From the IMG/VR virus record IMGVR_UViG_3300030099_004716, positions 1 to 23,557 of that record: 23,557 bases of DNA; one strand, written 5' to 3'. The position numbers and the translations under genes were made by a program. The notes below the pieces were generated by a model. It was not told the DNA's origin. It searched no databases and saw nothing but the letters and a program-made list of their open reading frames with translations. Below, in pieces: positions 1 to 17,916 of this stretch. Numbering within the stretch: the first letter of the stretch is position 1; each line of letters opens with the position of its first letter. The DNA comes from a virus.

Positions 1-1274
1 ACAGCAATGCTGCGGTTCAGTCTACTGCGGTGACTCAGAATGCTATCCAGCGCACTCTCAACTCCCAGACCATTGATCAGTTAGCTGAAGCTAAGAAACT
101 GCAATCCGAAGTTGCTGCAAGTCAGGCTAGAGTTGAGGCGCAGAAGTTCTCTATTGGTGCGCTGGAAATGCTCCAGAGTATGGAAGCTAACCAATTCAAT
201 CGTAACATGCAGATGACCAATGCTATGATTGACGATCAGCGCTGGAGAGAAGGCTTTGAGTTGCGTAAGGCTCAGTTTGAAGAGGCCCAAGCTAACCGCA
301 AAGCTCGCCAGCAGGATGAGGAATTTTACGCTGAGCAAACTGCTTGGGGTAATGCCGCTGCTGAACGTCTCGGTCTGCGTCCGCGTAGTGTAGCTGAGTA
401 CAAACGTTTCCTTGGCACCAACAGTCCTGAAGGCCAGCGACTGCAAATGCTGGTAGAACAAGGTTACAACTTGGAAGCTAATGGTTCACTTGCGCCGCTT
501 GGTGCAACTCCGGCAGAAGCATTCCTCAATGTACAAGCTGTTGGCATTGACCCACCGCCAGCTCACCGTCCGGTGCGTAACTTGGTTGAGGCAGCTAAGC
601 AGACTACTGCATTTGCTGAGGCTACCAACAATCCTCGGGCCACACCAGAAAGTGTGACTCATGTATTTAATGAAGAGATCCAAAAAGCGGCCACGGCTCA
701 ATCCAAAAACGTTACTCAAGCTGGCAACAACGCTAACGCAGTTCCAGAGATTGCTACAGTTCTGGCTGCAGGTACTCCCGGTGCTCAGCGACTGGCGCAG
801 AGTAAGTTTGGTACAGAAGTTCTGGCTGCTATGGTCTCCACTGATAATGGTAATCCTGAAGCTGAAGTGCTCATGGCTACAGGACTTGCCGCGGTTAATG
901 AAGGTAAAATTACTTTCCAAGAACTGCAGCAAGGTGTGGCTGCTTTTTACCAGGAAGGTGTTAACCTTACCGCGGCTACTGGTGGGTTCCAGCTGTACAG
1001 CATTAAAGCTCCAACTACTTATGAGATCAGTATTGATCGTATCCGCCCGGATAATAAGTGGTACCAGTTTGGTGGGCAAGGTGTCGGTGCTACTAACCAA
1101 GCCTTACTCAACATTGCTGCGCGAGCTACTGGCCTGCCGGCAGACTCTGTACAGTTGCCTACTCGTCTGGATATGACCAAGCCAGAGGCAGTGGCTAAGG
1201 CTTTGACCCTGATGCAAGCTGGCAACATTGCAGCTAAGATCCAAGAGCAATCTAAGAGCGGCCAACAACAGTAA
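1..1274 (+). CDS. Structural (probable internal virion) protein, 5' partial
   Basis: The frame is open from the first base (complete codons from position 3), so the start lies outside the window and about 423 residues are visible. A GTG at position 30 could be mistaken for the start, but it has no Shine-Dalgarno (SD) sequence and the frame continues upstream. The first ~110 residues are rich in Q, A, E, K and R and look like a long coiled coil. The rest is an Ala/Gln/Asn-rich globular-looking region without cysteines or an enzymatic motif I recognise. The gene ends 9 bases before the giant gene at 1284. That order, a medium coiled-coil protein followed by a very large protein, is what podoviruses such as T7 (gp15 then gp16) show for internal core or ejection proteins. 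The role is therefore inferred from position and composition only. Confidence 0.6.
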   Translation, partial: SNAAVQSTAVTQNAIQRTLNSQTIDQLAEAKKLQSEVAASQARVEAQKFSIGALEMLQSMEANQFNRNMQMTNAMIDDQRWREGFELRKAQFEEAQANRKARQQDEEFYAEQTAWGNAAAERLGLRPRSVAEYKRFLGTNSPEGQRLQMLVEQGYNLEANGSLAPLGATPAEAFLNVQAVGIDPPPAHRPVRNLVEAAKQTTAFAEATNNPRATPESVTHVFNEEIQKAATAQSKNVTQAGNNANAVPEIATVLAAGTPGAQRLAQSKFGTEVLAAMVSTDNGNPEAEVLMATGLAAVNEGKITFQELQQGVAAFYQEGVNLTAATGGFQLYSIKAPTTYEISIDRIRPDNKWYQFGGQGVGATNQALLNIAARATGLPADSVQLPTRLDMTKPEAVAKALTLMQAGNIAAKIQEQSKSGQQQ

Positions 1275-13994: not shown

Positions 13995-14210
13995 TTAGTC
14001 CTCTTTTTCAGAGTTGTGAGCTTTTATCTTACCATTGTCCAGATTGATTGTCCAGAACTTTCTGCTGCAATCTACAATGTCTCCATCACTGTCCATAGGC
14101 GAACCTACTACAACAGTGTTGGGCATGTAACGAGACGCTACTGCTATAGCTTCCGGTCCTGACTCAGCGTGTAGCTTGAGTATGACATCAGTTAACTCTA
14201 ATAATCTCAT
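13995..14210 (-). CDS. Unknown small protein (71 aa)
   Basis: I do not recognise this protein. It overlaps the nuclease gene by four bases (ATGA), and GAGGAG in the nuclease reading frame serves as SD. The N-terminal ~30 residues form an amphipathic helix. The rest looks like a small beta hairpin domain with two VDC/TINLDNG strands and an acidic tail (SEKED). It lies between the PD-(D/E)XK nuclease and the small helical protein before Sak4. Confidence 0.75.
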   Translation of the reverse strand: MRLLELTDVILKLHAESGPEAIAVASRYMPNTVVVGSPMDSDGDIVDCSRKFWTINLDNGKIKAHNSEKED

Positions 14211-15196
14211 GCCAGTAACTCCTCGAAGTCAATGTAGAAATCATACTTAGCTTCTTCCCATTCACCAGCCAGATTCTTACGCAAGTCTTTGTAATGTTTC
14301 TCACGCAACAGAGACATAAGAGACTCAGTAGGCTGGTGACAGAAGTCCATGTACGGACAGACTCGGCCAAAGTTAGTGCAGCTCTCACCGTGAGTAGGCC
14401 AGTTGCCGTAGTTGCCAAACCTCTCTAGCATACGCTCAAGAGTTTCTTCATCCCACAGTCTGTCCTGCAACCACAGTGCCCGCTGAGTCATGGACTTAGG
14501 AAAGTCAAACGGCTCAAAGCGATTGAGCTTAGTCATCCACACAAGGTACTGAACATTGTAGCTAGTGCAGCCAGGCTCAATCTTATCCAGAATTACTGAG
14601 TACCCAATGGCTTGCGCACTGTTCTTGTAATTGTAGTGGTTGACATAGTTAGCACTGGAGGTTTTCAACTCCAATACCAACAACTCACCTGTGATAATGT
14701 GGCGCAATACCAAGTCCACATAACCCCGGTACTGAACTCTGGGGAACTGGATACAGAATGACAACTCAGCTGCTGGCTTACCGTTAATGTACGCGACTTC
14801 GTAGTCATCAAACATACCTGCATCCACTAAGTCCACAAACTGCATCAGGCAACCGATGGCACTGAGTAAGCTCTTCTTCTGCTTCTCATTCTCTGCCCAA
14901 GTTTCTGTGTGCCAAGTAGTGAACATGGCCCAGACAGTCTTGTTCCAGTCGCGAGTGATAAGGTACTGCTGGATACCTTCACCAATCACATGACCATAAG
15001 AGAAAGTGATCTCAGTATTGTAGTCATGAATAGAGTCAGCTTGTAACTTACCCAACTGGAATCGGCGGGGACACTCATGTAGTCCCAACTCAGATGAGTA
15101 AGACATACGCAGGAAGCGTGGGTCAATCTCACCGGGTTCCAGTATTCTAACTGGTGAAGTATCTTCTTCCGACAGGGCTGTATCTAAGAAACTCAT
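14207..15196 (-). CDS. PD-(D/E)XK nuclease, RecB/Cas4-like, with probable Fe-S cysteines (329 aa)
   Basis: The nuclease core shows YRGYVDLV (D161), then LLVLELKTS (E176, K178), then QAIGY (Q195, Y199), the order of the PDDEXK_1 / Cas4 / AddB nuclease group. Four cysteines frame the domain: C42 in HECPRRF, and C273, C280 and C286 (C-x6-C-x5-C). In Cas4 and AddB such a set holds a 4Fe-4S cluster that locks the fold. The spacing here differs slightly from the usual C-x2-C-x5-C. The protein probably resects or trims DNA ends for the Sak4 pathway. Start: GGAG lies 9 bases upstream, and the gene overlaps its upstream neighbour by ATGA. Confidence 0.85.
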   Translation of the reverse strand: MSFLDTALSEEDTSPVRILEPGEIDPRFLRMSYSSELGLHECPRRFQLGKLQADSIHDYNTEITFSYGHVIGEGIQQYLITRDWNKTVWAMFTTWHTETWAENEKQKKSLLSAIGCLMQFVDLVDAGMFDDYEVAYINGKPAAELSFCIQFPRVQYRGYVDLVLRHIITGELLVLELKTSSANYVNHYNYKNSAQAIGYSVILDKIEPGCTSYNVQYLVWMTKLNRFEPFDFPKSMTQRALWLQDRLWDEETLERMLERFGNYGNWPTHGESCTNFGRVCPYMDFCHQPTESLMSLLREKHYKDLRKNLAGEWEEAKYDFYIDFEELLA

Positions 15197-15726
15197 TTGC
15201 CTAGTCTCCGTTCATGTGGTGATTTACAACAGGAGTCAAACTTACCTGCTGTGTAAAAGTTCTGCATTGCTACATTGAATGCCCACTCTACCCAAGTCCA
15301 GTGGATACCAGTGTGCATAGCAATGCGTTGTATCTCATACGCTGGTGACCAGTTAAGTCCCCGGCAGTTACGGCAGGCATTTACTAATGCCGGATAGTCA
15401 GAGTCTGCTACCTTAGTACCGCAGCCGCACACGATAAGGAAACTATCGGACGGGAACTGCTTAGCACTAAACTTATCTCGCAGATCATGGCCGGGTCTCA
15501 CAAGTATCTCAAAGAGCATAAGACCTGTAGCCATATAGTCTTTGTAATTCTCGTGGCGTTGGGACAGATAAAGATGTACTGCAAGTAACAGATCGTCTTT
15601 ATCTGCGCCAGCTAGTTCAGTAATATCAGTCACAGTTCTTGAGTTAGTAGCCAAGCGCACACCGTCAAATGGTATACGCTCAGCTCCTAAATCCTCCGCA
15701 CTTTCCAGTTGAGAGAGTATGTCCAT
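15193..15726 (-). CDS. Unknown protein with zinc-ribbon cysteines (177 aa)
   Basis: I do not recognise the family. C100, C102, C118 and C121 (C-x-C-x15-C-x2-C) make a probable zinc ribbon in the middle. Flanking it are a helical N-terminal part (ADKDDLLLAVHLYLSQRHENY) and a helical, Trp-rich part (HWTWVEWAF) that ends in a basic tail with C165 and C166. Translation begins at TAATG overlapping the previous stop, with no good SD, so it depends on coupling. It overlaps the nuclease gene by ATGA. The context suggests DNA-end processing, and zinc ribbons often bind nucleic acid, but the role is unproven. Confidence 0.75.
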   Translation of the reverse strand: MDILSQLESAEDLGAERIPFDGVRLATNSRTVTDITELAGADKDDLLLAVHLYLSQRHENYKDYMATGLMLFEILVRPGHDLRDKFSAKQFPSDSFLIVCGCGTKVADSDYPALVNACRNCRGLNWSPAYEIQRIAMHTGIHWTWVEWAFNVAMQNFYTAGKFDSCCKSPHERRLGK

Positions 15727-16283
15727 TACAAATCGTCAGCACTGATTTGCAGATTCTTAACAGACTTCTTAGCTGCCTTGACTTTAGCTGGCTTAACAAT
15801 CTCAACATTAGCCATCTTAGTCAGTGCCTGCACAACTAAGCCAATGCCTTCATCAGTAAAGGCGGTTACAATAGCAGGATCTTTGCGCAACTTAACGTGA
15901 ATGTCACGGAGTACCACACGCATCTCAGGCAGCTCTTCAAGCATAGCTTGCTCAAGTTCTGCCATTTTCATTCTCAGTTGCTCTGCTTCTTCGTGGTCGT
16001 CCGTGATCCACTCATCTGCTGATAAGGACTCAGTGACTGGAGCATCTGGACTCGGTCGGGATTGTTGAGTTGCGACTGCAGTAACTTGTTCTGTCCCTGA
16101 GTCCAGCGCAGTTCCCGCTTGGTCTGCTGAAGTTTCCGGCTGCTCAGGTTCACTAACATTGCTGCTACCAGATTCAGTGCCAGCGATGCCAGTGCTAGGA
16201 CTTGCCAAGTTTCCAGATTCATTTTCAGTCTCCGCTCCCTTACGCTTGGCCATTAACTCAGCCAGTCTGTTCTTTGCACTCAT
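15726..16283 (-). CDS. Protein with disordered linker and shared N-terminal SAK-RLAEL peptide (185 aa)
   Basis: I do not recognise the family. Residues 2-18 (SAKNRLAELMAKRKGAE) form a basic amphipathic helix that closely matches the N-terminus of the SF1B helicase and the C-terminus of the 351-residue protein. Residues ~19-95 are rich in S, T, E, P, G and A and should be disordered. Residues ~96-160 are helical and acidic (AELEQAMLEELPEM), followed by a Lys/Ala-rich tail (KPAKVKAAKKSVK). The protein could be a scaffold that brings replication or recombination proteins together, an inference from the shared helix. GGAG lies before the ATG at 16283. An ORF in another frame with its own SD lies inside the disordered segment. 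Confidence 0.8.
   Translation of the reverse strand: MSAKNRLAELMAKRKGAETENESGNLASPSTGIAGTESGSSNVSEPEQPETSADQAGTALDSGTEQVTAVATQQSRPSPDAPVTESLSADEWITDDHEEAEQLRMKMAELEQAMLEELPEMRVVLRDIHVKLRKDPAIVTAFTDEGIGLVVQALTKMANVEIVKPAKVKAAKKSVKNLQISADDL
15974..16222 (-). CDS. Possible overprinted gene: single-span membrane protein (82 aa)
   Basis: This frame lies wholly inside the 185-residue gene, shifted by one base. The ATG at 16222 has GGAG 7 bases upstream, an ideal SD placed within the coding sequence of the host gene. Residues 7-26 form an uninterrupted hydrophobic helix (VLALASLALNLVAAMLV). It is followed by a strongly basic, Gln-rich helical segment (SSRKLQQTKRELRW, then NKLLQSQL) and a Lys/Ser tail. 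By the positive-inside rule the C-terminus would face the cytoplasm, which argues against a standard spanin. It coincides with the disordered, easily overprinted part of the host protein. An accidental hydrophobic stretch from CTG- and GCA-rich codons in the shifted frame remains possible. Confidence 0.4.
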   Translation of the reverse strand: MNLETWQVLALASLALNLVAAMLVNLSSRKLQQTKRELRWTQGQNKLLQSQLNNPDRVQMLQSLSPYQQMSGSRTTTKKQSN

Positions 16284-16284
16284 G

Positions 16285-16992
16285 TTACACTCTCCGCTTG
16301 TAGATACTCCCCAACTCAGAGAGCATGAAAGTTTTGTACTCTTCCCAGGTTTCAGGAGTAGCTGCTTTACTGCGCTGCATCAGGACTTCCAAGAACATAT
16401 TATCTTCAGCAGCCAGGCTCTCAAACCAGCCCGGAACTTTCCAGTGCTTGTCGTACTCACCGCTCTTGTAACCGTTGGCTTGGCGGAACTCATTGAGACA
16501 GCACTTGGCAGCATAGATGTGGACAACATCTTCACCAGTCATACCTAGAGTATGCAGAAGACTCTGCAAAGAGTCCCACTTAATGCCAGTTGCCAGGTAC
16601 TCACAAGCGATTACTTTCAAATTGTACGCAATAGTATCTGTCTGAAGGTGAGAAAGATACTCTTTGCTTGCAGGTTCAGGAACTTGATTGACCATCCAGA
16701 ACTTGCTCAGAACAAAGTGAAGCATGTCAATCAGCTCCAACTTGAACTGCTCCCGATTCTCAGGCGGGAGATAGTAAGCACCACTGGTATCTTTCCACCA
16801 CTTCCAGTTGACCAGACTCAGTGCTTCAGCAACTTCGTCAATAAGAGCCAGTTGGAAATCCCAGTTCTGGGTCAGCCAGTTAGGATGGATCAACTTGTTC
16901 AGCTCATTCTGGCGTTCCATAAGCCAAGCAATTTGGCTACGGGTAAATACCGGGCCAGTAACTGCTCTTACTACTGTACGTTCTTCGTTCAT
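16285..16992 (-). CDS. All-alpha dUTPase / NTP pyrophosphatase (235 aa)
   Basis: The sequence fits the all-alpha NTP pyrophosphatase superfamily of the dUTPase_2 type (PF08761). FQLALIDEVAEAL gives the first metal-binding pair E53 and E56. NWKWWKD follows, and KLELIDMLHFVL gives E86 and D89. These enzymes cleave dUTP to dUMP and keep uracil out of new phage DNA. The start at 16992 is chosen because GGAGG lies 7 bases upstream and the ATG overlaps the previous stop as ATGA. The open frame begins at a TTG at 17007, which lacks support. The C-terminal ~110 residues include helices and a basic end (YKRRV). A related dCTPase or MazG-like specificity cannot be ruled out. Confidence 0.85.
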   Translation of the reverse strand: MNEERTVVRAVTGPVFTRSQIAWLMERQNELNKLIHPNWLTQNWDFQLALIDEVAEALSLVNWKWWKDTSGAYYLPPENREQFKLELIDMLHFVLSKFWMVNQVPEPASKEYLSHLQTDTIAYNLKVIACEYLATGIKWDSLQSLLHTLGMTGEDVVHIYAAKCCLNEFRQANGYKSGEYDKHWKVPGWFESLAAEDNMFLEVLMQRSKAATPETWEEYKTFMLSELGSIYKRRV

Positions 16993-17210
16993 TGCATTGC
17001 CTCCCAACCTGAAGTTGACTTCTCAGACCGCGCTAACTCCCAGACATCGCCAGAGTCATCCTTAATATGCCCACCAATGTATACAAACTTAACACGGCGA
17101 TAGTCGTCAGGCGCTCCCTTGTACTTAACTTTGCCTGTCTGATCTGTCTCAGTACGAGTACGGCAAAGAAAGGGAGTACCAACTTCTAGGAGTTTATATT
17201 TCTCGGACAT
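16989..17210 (-). CDS. Unknown small protein (73 aa)
   Basis: I do not recognise this protein. It looks beta-rich, with segments such as FLCRTRTET, RRVKFVYIGG and GDVWELARSE, and could form a small SH3- or OB-like barrel. One cysteine is present and there is no membrane helix. An AGG lies 9 bases before the ATG. It overlaps the dUTPase gene by ATGA and is therefore coupled to it. A strong hairpin lies 33 bases upstream of its start, so its transcription may be controlled there. Confidence 0.75.
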   Translation of the reverse strand: MSEKYKLLEVGTPFLCRTRTETDQTGKVKYKGAPDDYRRVKFVYIGGHIKDDSGDVWELARSEKSTSGWEAMQ

Positions 17211-17310: not shown

Positions 17311-17916
17311 TTACAGAGCGTCAGCAGTCACGACTTCGGACTTCTCAGTCAGCTCAGCAACCTTGTCCATCAGGTACTTAACCACACGTTCGTGAGTTTC
17401 CAGCACGTCTTCAGGCGCATTGGTAACGAAAGTTTCCAGATAGCCGACCAGTTTCTGAAGTACCGCAGTATCGCCGGCAACTTGCTTGAAACGGTCGATG
17501 AAAAGACCAGCAGCCATCTGGAGTTGCTTCTCGGTACGATCGGACGCAGTTGCCATAACTGTGATGAAGTCTTTGGCGAACGCTTCCAGATCGACTTTGG
17601 TAAGTACCGAACGCTCGGACTTCGGCAAGTTTGCCAGAGCTTCCAGAGTCAGCTTACCTTCGGCAGCCAGTGCATCCAGAGTATCTTGATTGAACTCAGG
17701 ATTTTCGTCAACAAAGCTACGGATGTAGCTGTTCAGAGGAGCGTAAGCCGCTTCGACAATGAAGTCTTTTACTTTCTCACTGCCGTTAGTCAGCAGTTCG
17801 ATCAGACCAGCAGCACTGGGTACAGCGAACACGACTTCAACAGTCGGGCGCTTGTAGCCAGTTTCTTTGTCTTTGCGGAAGTTGTAAGTACCAGTAACTT
17901 GCTGTTCAAGGCTCAT
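17311..17916 (-). CDS. Unknown, probably abundant early protein (201 aa)
   Basis: I do not recognise the family. It begins with a beta-like segment (residues 1-35), then is mainly helical, with an acidic C-terminal helix and tail (AELTEKSEVVTADAL). It has no cysteine and no membrane segment. AAGGA lies upstream of the ATG. Three things suggest strong expression: its own extended -10 promoter about 70 bases upstream, a hairpin at the presumed mRNA 5' end, and codons (CTG, CGC, AAC, GGT) closer to host-optimal than those of the helicase and the genes to its right. A hairpin after the gene would isolate it as a short transcript. Abundant early phage proteins of this size include DNA-binding and host-takeover factors, but nothing here decides. 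Confidence 0.8.
   Translation of the reverse strand: MSLEQQVTGTYNFRKDKETGYKRPTVEVVFAVPSAAGLIELLTNGSEKVKDFIVEAAYAPLNSYIRSFVDENPEFNQDTLDALAAEGKLTLEALANLPKSERSVLTKVDLEAFAKDFITVMATASDRTEKQLQMAAGLFIDRFKQVAGDTAVLQKLVGYLETFVTNAPEDVLETHERVVKYLMDKVAELTEKSEVVTADAL

Follow-up and report, generated by a model that had tools for sequence, protein, structure and literature searches.

A candidate overprinted gene, predicted to encode a small membrane protein, within the disordered linker of a phage replication/recombination gene

The locus and its embedded reading frame

The window analyzed here is the whole of a 23,557-nucleotide (23.6-kb) viral record (IMGVR_UViG_3300030099_004716), for which a near-identical complete contig, its twin, exists (IMGVR_UViG_3300030119_000441). 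Its minus strand carries an operon with genes for a Dda/RecD-like helicase, a dUTPase/MazG-like protein, a 185-aa protein, a 177-aa protein, a Cas4-like exonuclease, a Sak4-like protein and DNA polymerase A. The gene for the 185-aa protein of this replication/recombination module (15726..16283, minus strand), hereafter the host gene, is preceded by that of the dUTPase/MazG-like pyrophosphohydrolase (16285..17007, minus strand; PF08761, phrog_173) and lies 5' of that of the Cas4-like PD-(D/E)XK exonuclease (14207..15196, minus strand; PF12705, phrog_1218). The AlphaFold model of the host protein comprises an N-terminal helix (residues 3-17; 16233..16277, minus strand), a disordered linker (residues 22-92; 16008..16220, minus strand) and a conserved helical domain (residues 94-157; 15813..16004, minus strand) that is modeled with pLDDT above 90 over most of its length and that, according to HMM matches, makes up the whole protein in most orthologues. 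The fold of this domain has no match in the PDB at E <= 0.001, and two viral models match it.

The termini of the host protein bear short motifs that recur in neighboring proteins. Its N-terminal helix has a motif in common with the N-terminus of the phage helicase (20082..18262 and 16283..15726, both minus strand; MSAKTRLAELLAAKRKARE and MSAKNRLAELMAKRKGAE), and similar ELKARLAxxK N-termini are found also on the host orthologues and helicases of relatives, so that this type of N-terminus is perhaps a common docking peptide. Short acidic C-terminal tails, reminiscent of SSB C-terminal tips, are present on the host protein (15726-15743, minus strand) and on a 201-aa protein (17311-17330, minus strand); across window proteins and the orthologues in L005-L008 they read ISADDL, STDDLGF and LDEDL, and VVTADAL and SVTEDSL.

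The linker is overprinted by a complete 82-codon open reading frame (15974..16222, minus strand) that lies fully inside the host gene, in its +1 frame, and starts 61 nt from the host start with an ATG of its own (16220-16222, minus strand). A Shine-Dalgarno (SD) core, GGAG (16230..16233, minus strand), is located 7 nt upstream of this ATG, within GGGAGCGGAG, and its predicted duplex with the anti-SD has an energy of -8.0 kcal/mol, as compared with -7.0 kcal/mol at the start of the host gene itself and a median of -2.4 kcal/mol over all minus-strand ATGs of the window. The encoded sequence, MNLETWQVLALASLALNLVAAMLVNLSSRKLQQTKRELRWTQGQNKLLQSQLNNPDRVQMLQSLSPYQQMSGSRTTTKKQSN, contains a predicted transmembrane (TM) helix at residues 8-26 (VLALASLALNLVAAMLVNL; 16145..16201, minus strand; Kyte-Doolittle 19-residue mean of 2.23), with no Lys or Arg N-terminal of the helix and five in the 15 residues that follow it. 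The remainder is a basic, Gln-rich tail (residues 29-82; 15977..16138, minus strand), with a net charge of +8 after the helix, which the positive-inside rule places in the cytoplasm. A preliminary description of the sequence had pointed out the frame, its ATG, the GGAG 7 nt upstream, the hydrophobic helix and the basic tail, and its coordinates and features were all correct when derived anew; its placement of the frame over a disordered part of the host protein is likewise borne out by the model, in which host residues 22-78 have a pLDDT of 41-46. The embedded protein has no match above cut-off in Pfam, PHROGs, NCBIfam or PADLOC, and no tblastn match among named phages.

Relatives of the host gene

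Searches at the DNA and protein level for direct relatives of the host or the embedded gene returned only the twin contig, identical here, and no named phage, and a scan of genome contigs for relatives found none. Relatives were hence gathered with the exonuclease as bait, and host orthologues were then identified among them with an HMM of the C-terminal domain. This yielded about 130 non-redundant host orthologues, most of them of about 85-105 aa and devoid of the linker; 17, including that of the window, are extended at the N-terminus by at least 60 residues. The named phages related through the exonuclease are Polaromonas phage Tiera, Pseudomonas phage PaP2 and its relatives (Fredfastierviridae), and Aeromonas phage P5, at 29-32% identity, and the three closest linker-bearing relatives (L012, L013/L014 and L039) have exonucleases 52-53% identical to that of the window in tblastn matches. 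Some loci are close copies of one another: L001 and the window have the same sequence across the host/embedded region, L013 and L014 differ by one base and one gap in 9 kb, and L097 and L098 are identical over the 323 bases that they share.

An SD-led ORF starting with ATG occurs in the +1 frame of the linker in 12 of the 17 linker-bearing orthologues, that of the window included; the linkers of L139, L182, PaP2, Tiera and Aeromonas phage P5 have none. The SD core lies 6-10 nt upstream of the first ATG in all 12, and its anti-SD duplexes (-5.6 to -10.8 kcal/mol, against ATG medians of -1.4 to -2.6) are comparable in energy to those of real gene starts. The contexts of these ORFs share the SD and ATG, and inspection by eye revealed no slippery sequence, so that a programmed frameshift joining the host N-terminus to the +1 frame was discarded.

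The preliminary description had proposed to examine related phages for the open frame, its SD and its hydrophobic helix. The three closest relatives retain them all: L012, L013/L014 and L039 have an open +1 frame, an ATG with GAGG or GGAGG 9 nt upstream, and a hydrophobic helix. Over the whole linker-bearing set the SD-led frame recurs as stated above and the helix is kept in part, seven of the 12 products (L008, L095, L096, L098, L123, L136 and L144) having no TM segment. Single-TM products are predicted for L012 (92 aa), L013/L014 (63 aa), L039 (112 aa) and L233 (42 aa), and the combination of one hydrophobic helix of about 19-22 residues with an asymmetric charge distribution, as judged from hydropathy and Lys/Arg counts, is predicted for these and for the window, which agrees with the proposal that the 82-codon ORF encodes a small bitopic membrane protein. 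Whereas the window protein has its helix at the N-terminus, in L012, L013 and L039 the helix is C-terminal and sits just 5' of the conserved host domain even though the host linkers are unalike and do not align. Nevertheless, in all five TM proteins the positive-inside rule predicts the basic helical part to be cytoplasmic, despite the placement of the TM helix at opposite ends. There is no recognizable full-length homology between the embedded proteins of the window and its relatives, which have only their architecture in common. The embedded protein of L039 is modeled by AlphaFold from its single sequence as two long helices (mean pLDDT of 76).

The absence of a TM segment had led the L008 ORF to be put down to chance, a reading that was dropped after the wider count of SD-led frames; it is probably part of the recurrent +1 pattern. 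Linker and ORF are both absent from L015, which the exonuclease tree places as sister to the window; they would have been lost together, which indicates that the embedded gene is dispensable. In the linker-less phage L024 a free-standing 52-aa gene (792-950, plus strand), with an N-terminal TM segment and a coiled-coil-like tail, lies between the host gene and the exonuclease, and it is possible that it represents a stand-alone counterpart of the embedded protein.

Recurrence of the embedded frame beyond chance

A stop codon in the +1 frame requires a host codon with TA or TG at its second and third positions, hence one for Leu, Val, Ile or Met. Linkers poor in these residues are thus open in the +1 frame by virtue of their composition, and one alternative to a gene is that a Ser/Thr/Glu-rich linker of low hydrophobicity, in which NTA and NTG codons are rare, has acquired an SD and a hydrophobic stretch by accident. 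The window by itself is only weakly beyond this expectation: an ORF of 82 or more codons is reached with p = 0.087 under synonymous permutation and with p = 0.033 under codon-usage resampling, and the value of 0.003 that the null gives once SD and TM helix are added concerns a feature that was picked from 23 kb of sequence. For comparison, two of the 201 further 200-codon units taken from these contigs (about 1%) contain an out-of-frame ORF of at least 60 codons with both SD and TM.

The significance of the frame comes from the relatives and not from the window alone. With the host protein held fixed and host codons resampled from each locus's own usage, the 16 linker loci other than the window should contain 1.2 SD-led +1 ORFs of at least 40 codons, and 11 are seen (p about 7e-13). 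Frame, start and SD are thus preserved among relatives to a greater degree than the host protein imposes. Permutation within genes leads to a similar expectation for these 16 loci (1.5), a stricter five-base SD definition gives nine against 0.7 expected, again with the window excluded, and the +2 frame of the linker loci holds no SD-led ORF, with about zero expected. ORFs with both SD and TM number four (L012, L013, L039 and L233), window excluded, against 0.17 expected (p 5e-6). The null is well calibrated for SD-led ORFs, of which the 201 other gene units contain two against 1.46 expected. On the other hand, it errs somewhat on the strict side with ordinary genes, where 27 ORFs of 60 or more codons are seen against 15.7 expected and two with SD and TM against 0.47, and hence the p-value for the TM proteins is optimistic and becomes about 0.005 after a four-fold correction. 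Relatives within a clade are, moreover, not fully independent, though their linkers hardly align.

Comparable SD-led, hydrophobic out-of-frame ORFs occur inside the exonuclease gene (L025, L027, L048, L054, L074, L076, L182, L197 and L236) and probably in the Sak4-like gene (L021, L022, L075, L112 and L203). These were rejected as overprinted genes because they follow conserved host amino acids, of which they are probably by-products, and were taken as false-positive controls. They illustrate how a conserved protein can generate such frames, and in that sense they speak for chance in the linker too; in the window clade, however, the host linker is not conserved and cannot account for the recurrence. 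This, together with an excess that persists with either null and either SD definition, makes an accidental origin an unlikely account of the linker ORFs.

Selection and history of the embedded frame

Hints of selection on the embedded frame appear in part of the set. The embedded proteins of L012 and L039 are more similar in the +1 frame than any of 600 resampled pairs (0/600), and those of the window and L039 are also more alike than the resampled null (p 0.0017); similarity between the remaining pairs is weak or at chance. In the clade of L008 four-fold-degenerate sites agree more often in the linker (0.53) than in the C-terminal domain (0.34), and a +1 motif, YN(P/Q)Qx-LLSWN, is kept; L012/L013/L039 and L123/L136/L144 show no excess conservation of four-fold sites in the linker. 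The otherwise highly variable host linkers of L008, L095, L096 and L098 share a conserved motif, LQSTxVVVVEQPxE, in which third positions are conserved as well. On the exonuclease tree the ORF-bearing rows require five changes and occupy at least four places, a scattered distribution that may reflect either an ancient gene that has frequently disappeared along with the linker or several separate gains.

The poor conservation of the product sequence, whereas SD, ATG and openness of the frame are kept, lends itself also to the main rival explanation: that translation matters and its product does not. The +1 ORF would then be a leader or coupling device whose stop permits restart at a nearby host-frame ATG, yielding the C-terminal domain alone. 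In the window, a host-frame ATG that might serve for reinitiation (15969..15971, minus strand) lies 2 nt beyond the embedded stop (TGA-GA-ATG), L012 and L039 have TAG-CA-ATG, and L013 has a +1 stop at the corresponding place, behind an earlier one; the C-terminal domain alone is, moreover, the form that most orthologues, being linker-less, encode. Yet no host-frame start follows shortly after the stop in L008, L095, L096, L098, L123, L136, L144 or L233, the host-frame ATG lacks an SD, the CTA-GCA-ATG context belongs to a conserved host motif (PLAM), and the TM helix is in excess in five members. We therefore regard coupling as a distinctly improbable explanation of the pattern.

Discussion

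The ORF embedded in the linker is a well-supported candidate overprinted gene, of the membrane type in the window clade, and not an artefact. The reading that we favor, and consider probable on the sequence evidence gathered here, is that it is a real and fast-evolving overprinted gene whose product in the window clade is a small single-pass inner-membrane protein. Ribosomes would start at the embedded SD and ATG on the early replication/recombination mRNA and produce, from the +1 frame of the host linker, an 82-residue protein that would insert into the inner membrane with an N-out/C-in topology in the window; for L012, L013, L039 and L233 the predicted topology is N-in/C-out.

Embedded genes of phages are known mostly from lysis, as with phiX174 E within D, and are often missed by gene callers. 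A close parallel is lambda Rz1, embedded in the +1 frame of Rz, with which it forms a two-component spanin (PMC6139136). The present case resembles Rz/Rz1 in its full embedding in the +1 frame, in the small size and membrane targeting of the proposed product and in the location of the SD within the outer gene, and the N-terminal TM and helical tail of the window protein are reminiscent of an i-spanin. A lysis gene, be it spanin, holin or antiholin, is nonetheless very improbable. Unlike Rz, the outer gene encodes a non-membrane protein of the replication/recombination module and lies 5' of the Cas4-like exonuclease, away from the lysis cassette; the embedded protein contains no Cys and hence no lipobox, as an o-spanin of the Rz1 type would require; and the TM helix is C-terminal in relatives. 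Furthermore, the late region of the twin contig has a separate pair of adjacent M15 endolysin and Rz-like spanin genes (L167:18692-19509), on the strand opposite to the early operon with the host gene. The second of these (L167:19174-19509, plus strand) is an Rz-like i-spanin that follows the M15-type endolysin.

As to function, gene context and architecture suggest that the product perhaps serves the phage replication/recombination complex as an accessory tethered to the membrane, an idea that we advance only tentatively. The membrane proteins p1 and p16.7 of Bacillus phage phi29 have been proposed to anchor and organize replication (PMC4974454), and the likeness, a functional analogy only, lies in a small early membrane protein of the replication module with one TM segment and a helical soluble part. 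Unlike p1 and p16.7, however, the gene in the window is overprinted and does not stand alone, and no PHROG or Pfam family is significantly matched by the embedded protein. The next candidate, perhaps a shade less plausible, is an early role at the envelope, such as superinfection exclusion or modulation of the membrane of the infected cell.

Viral overprinted genes arise de novo as a second gene in a shifted frame (reviewed in PMC8227390), and the present one conforms to this in occupying a sequence-tolerant, disordered part of an older gene. It departs from it in that the older gene is a DNA-metabolism gene of a tailed dsDNA phage, in that overprinted frames recur in no fewer than four lineages within a single gene family, and in that the products are not recognizably related between lineages. 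They are predicted to be membrane proteins in the window clade and in L233 and look soluble in the L008 and L144 clades. More speculatively, and with the odds leaning against it, the linker may be a recurrent cradle for overprinted genes, having carried an SD-led +1 gene with differing products in at least four phage lineages; the fast-changing 'disordered' sequence of the host protein would then be largely dictated by the second gene, and not the reverse.

Embedded phage genes as such are already known, and what would be new here is the location of one in a replication/recombination operon. The finding would provide, in an uncultured phage group, a small early predicted membrane protein as a test object, and, in the replicate lineages of a single family, a setting in which the gain and loss of an overprinted gene and the conflict between two frames over one sequence become measurable. 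If the proposal is true, some disordered linkers would be kept, or even shaped, for carrying a second gene.
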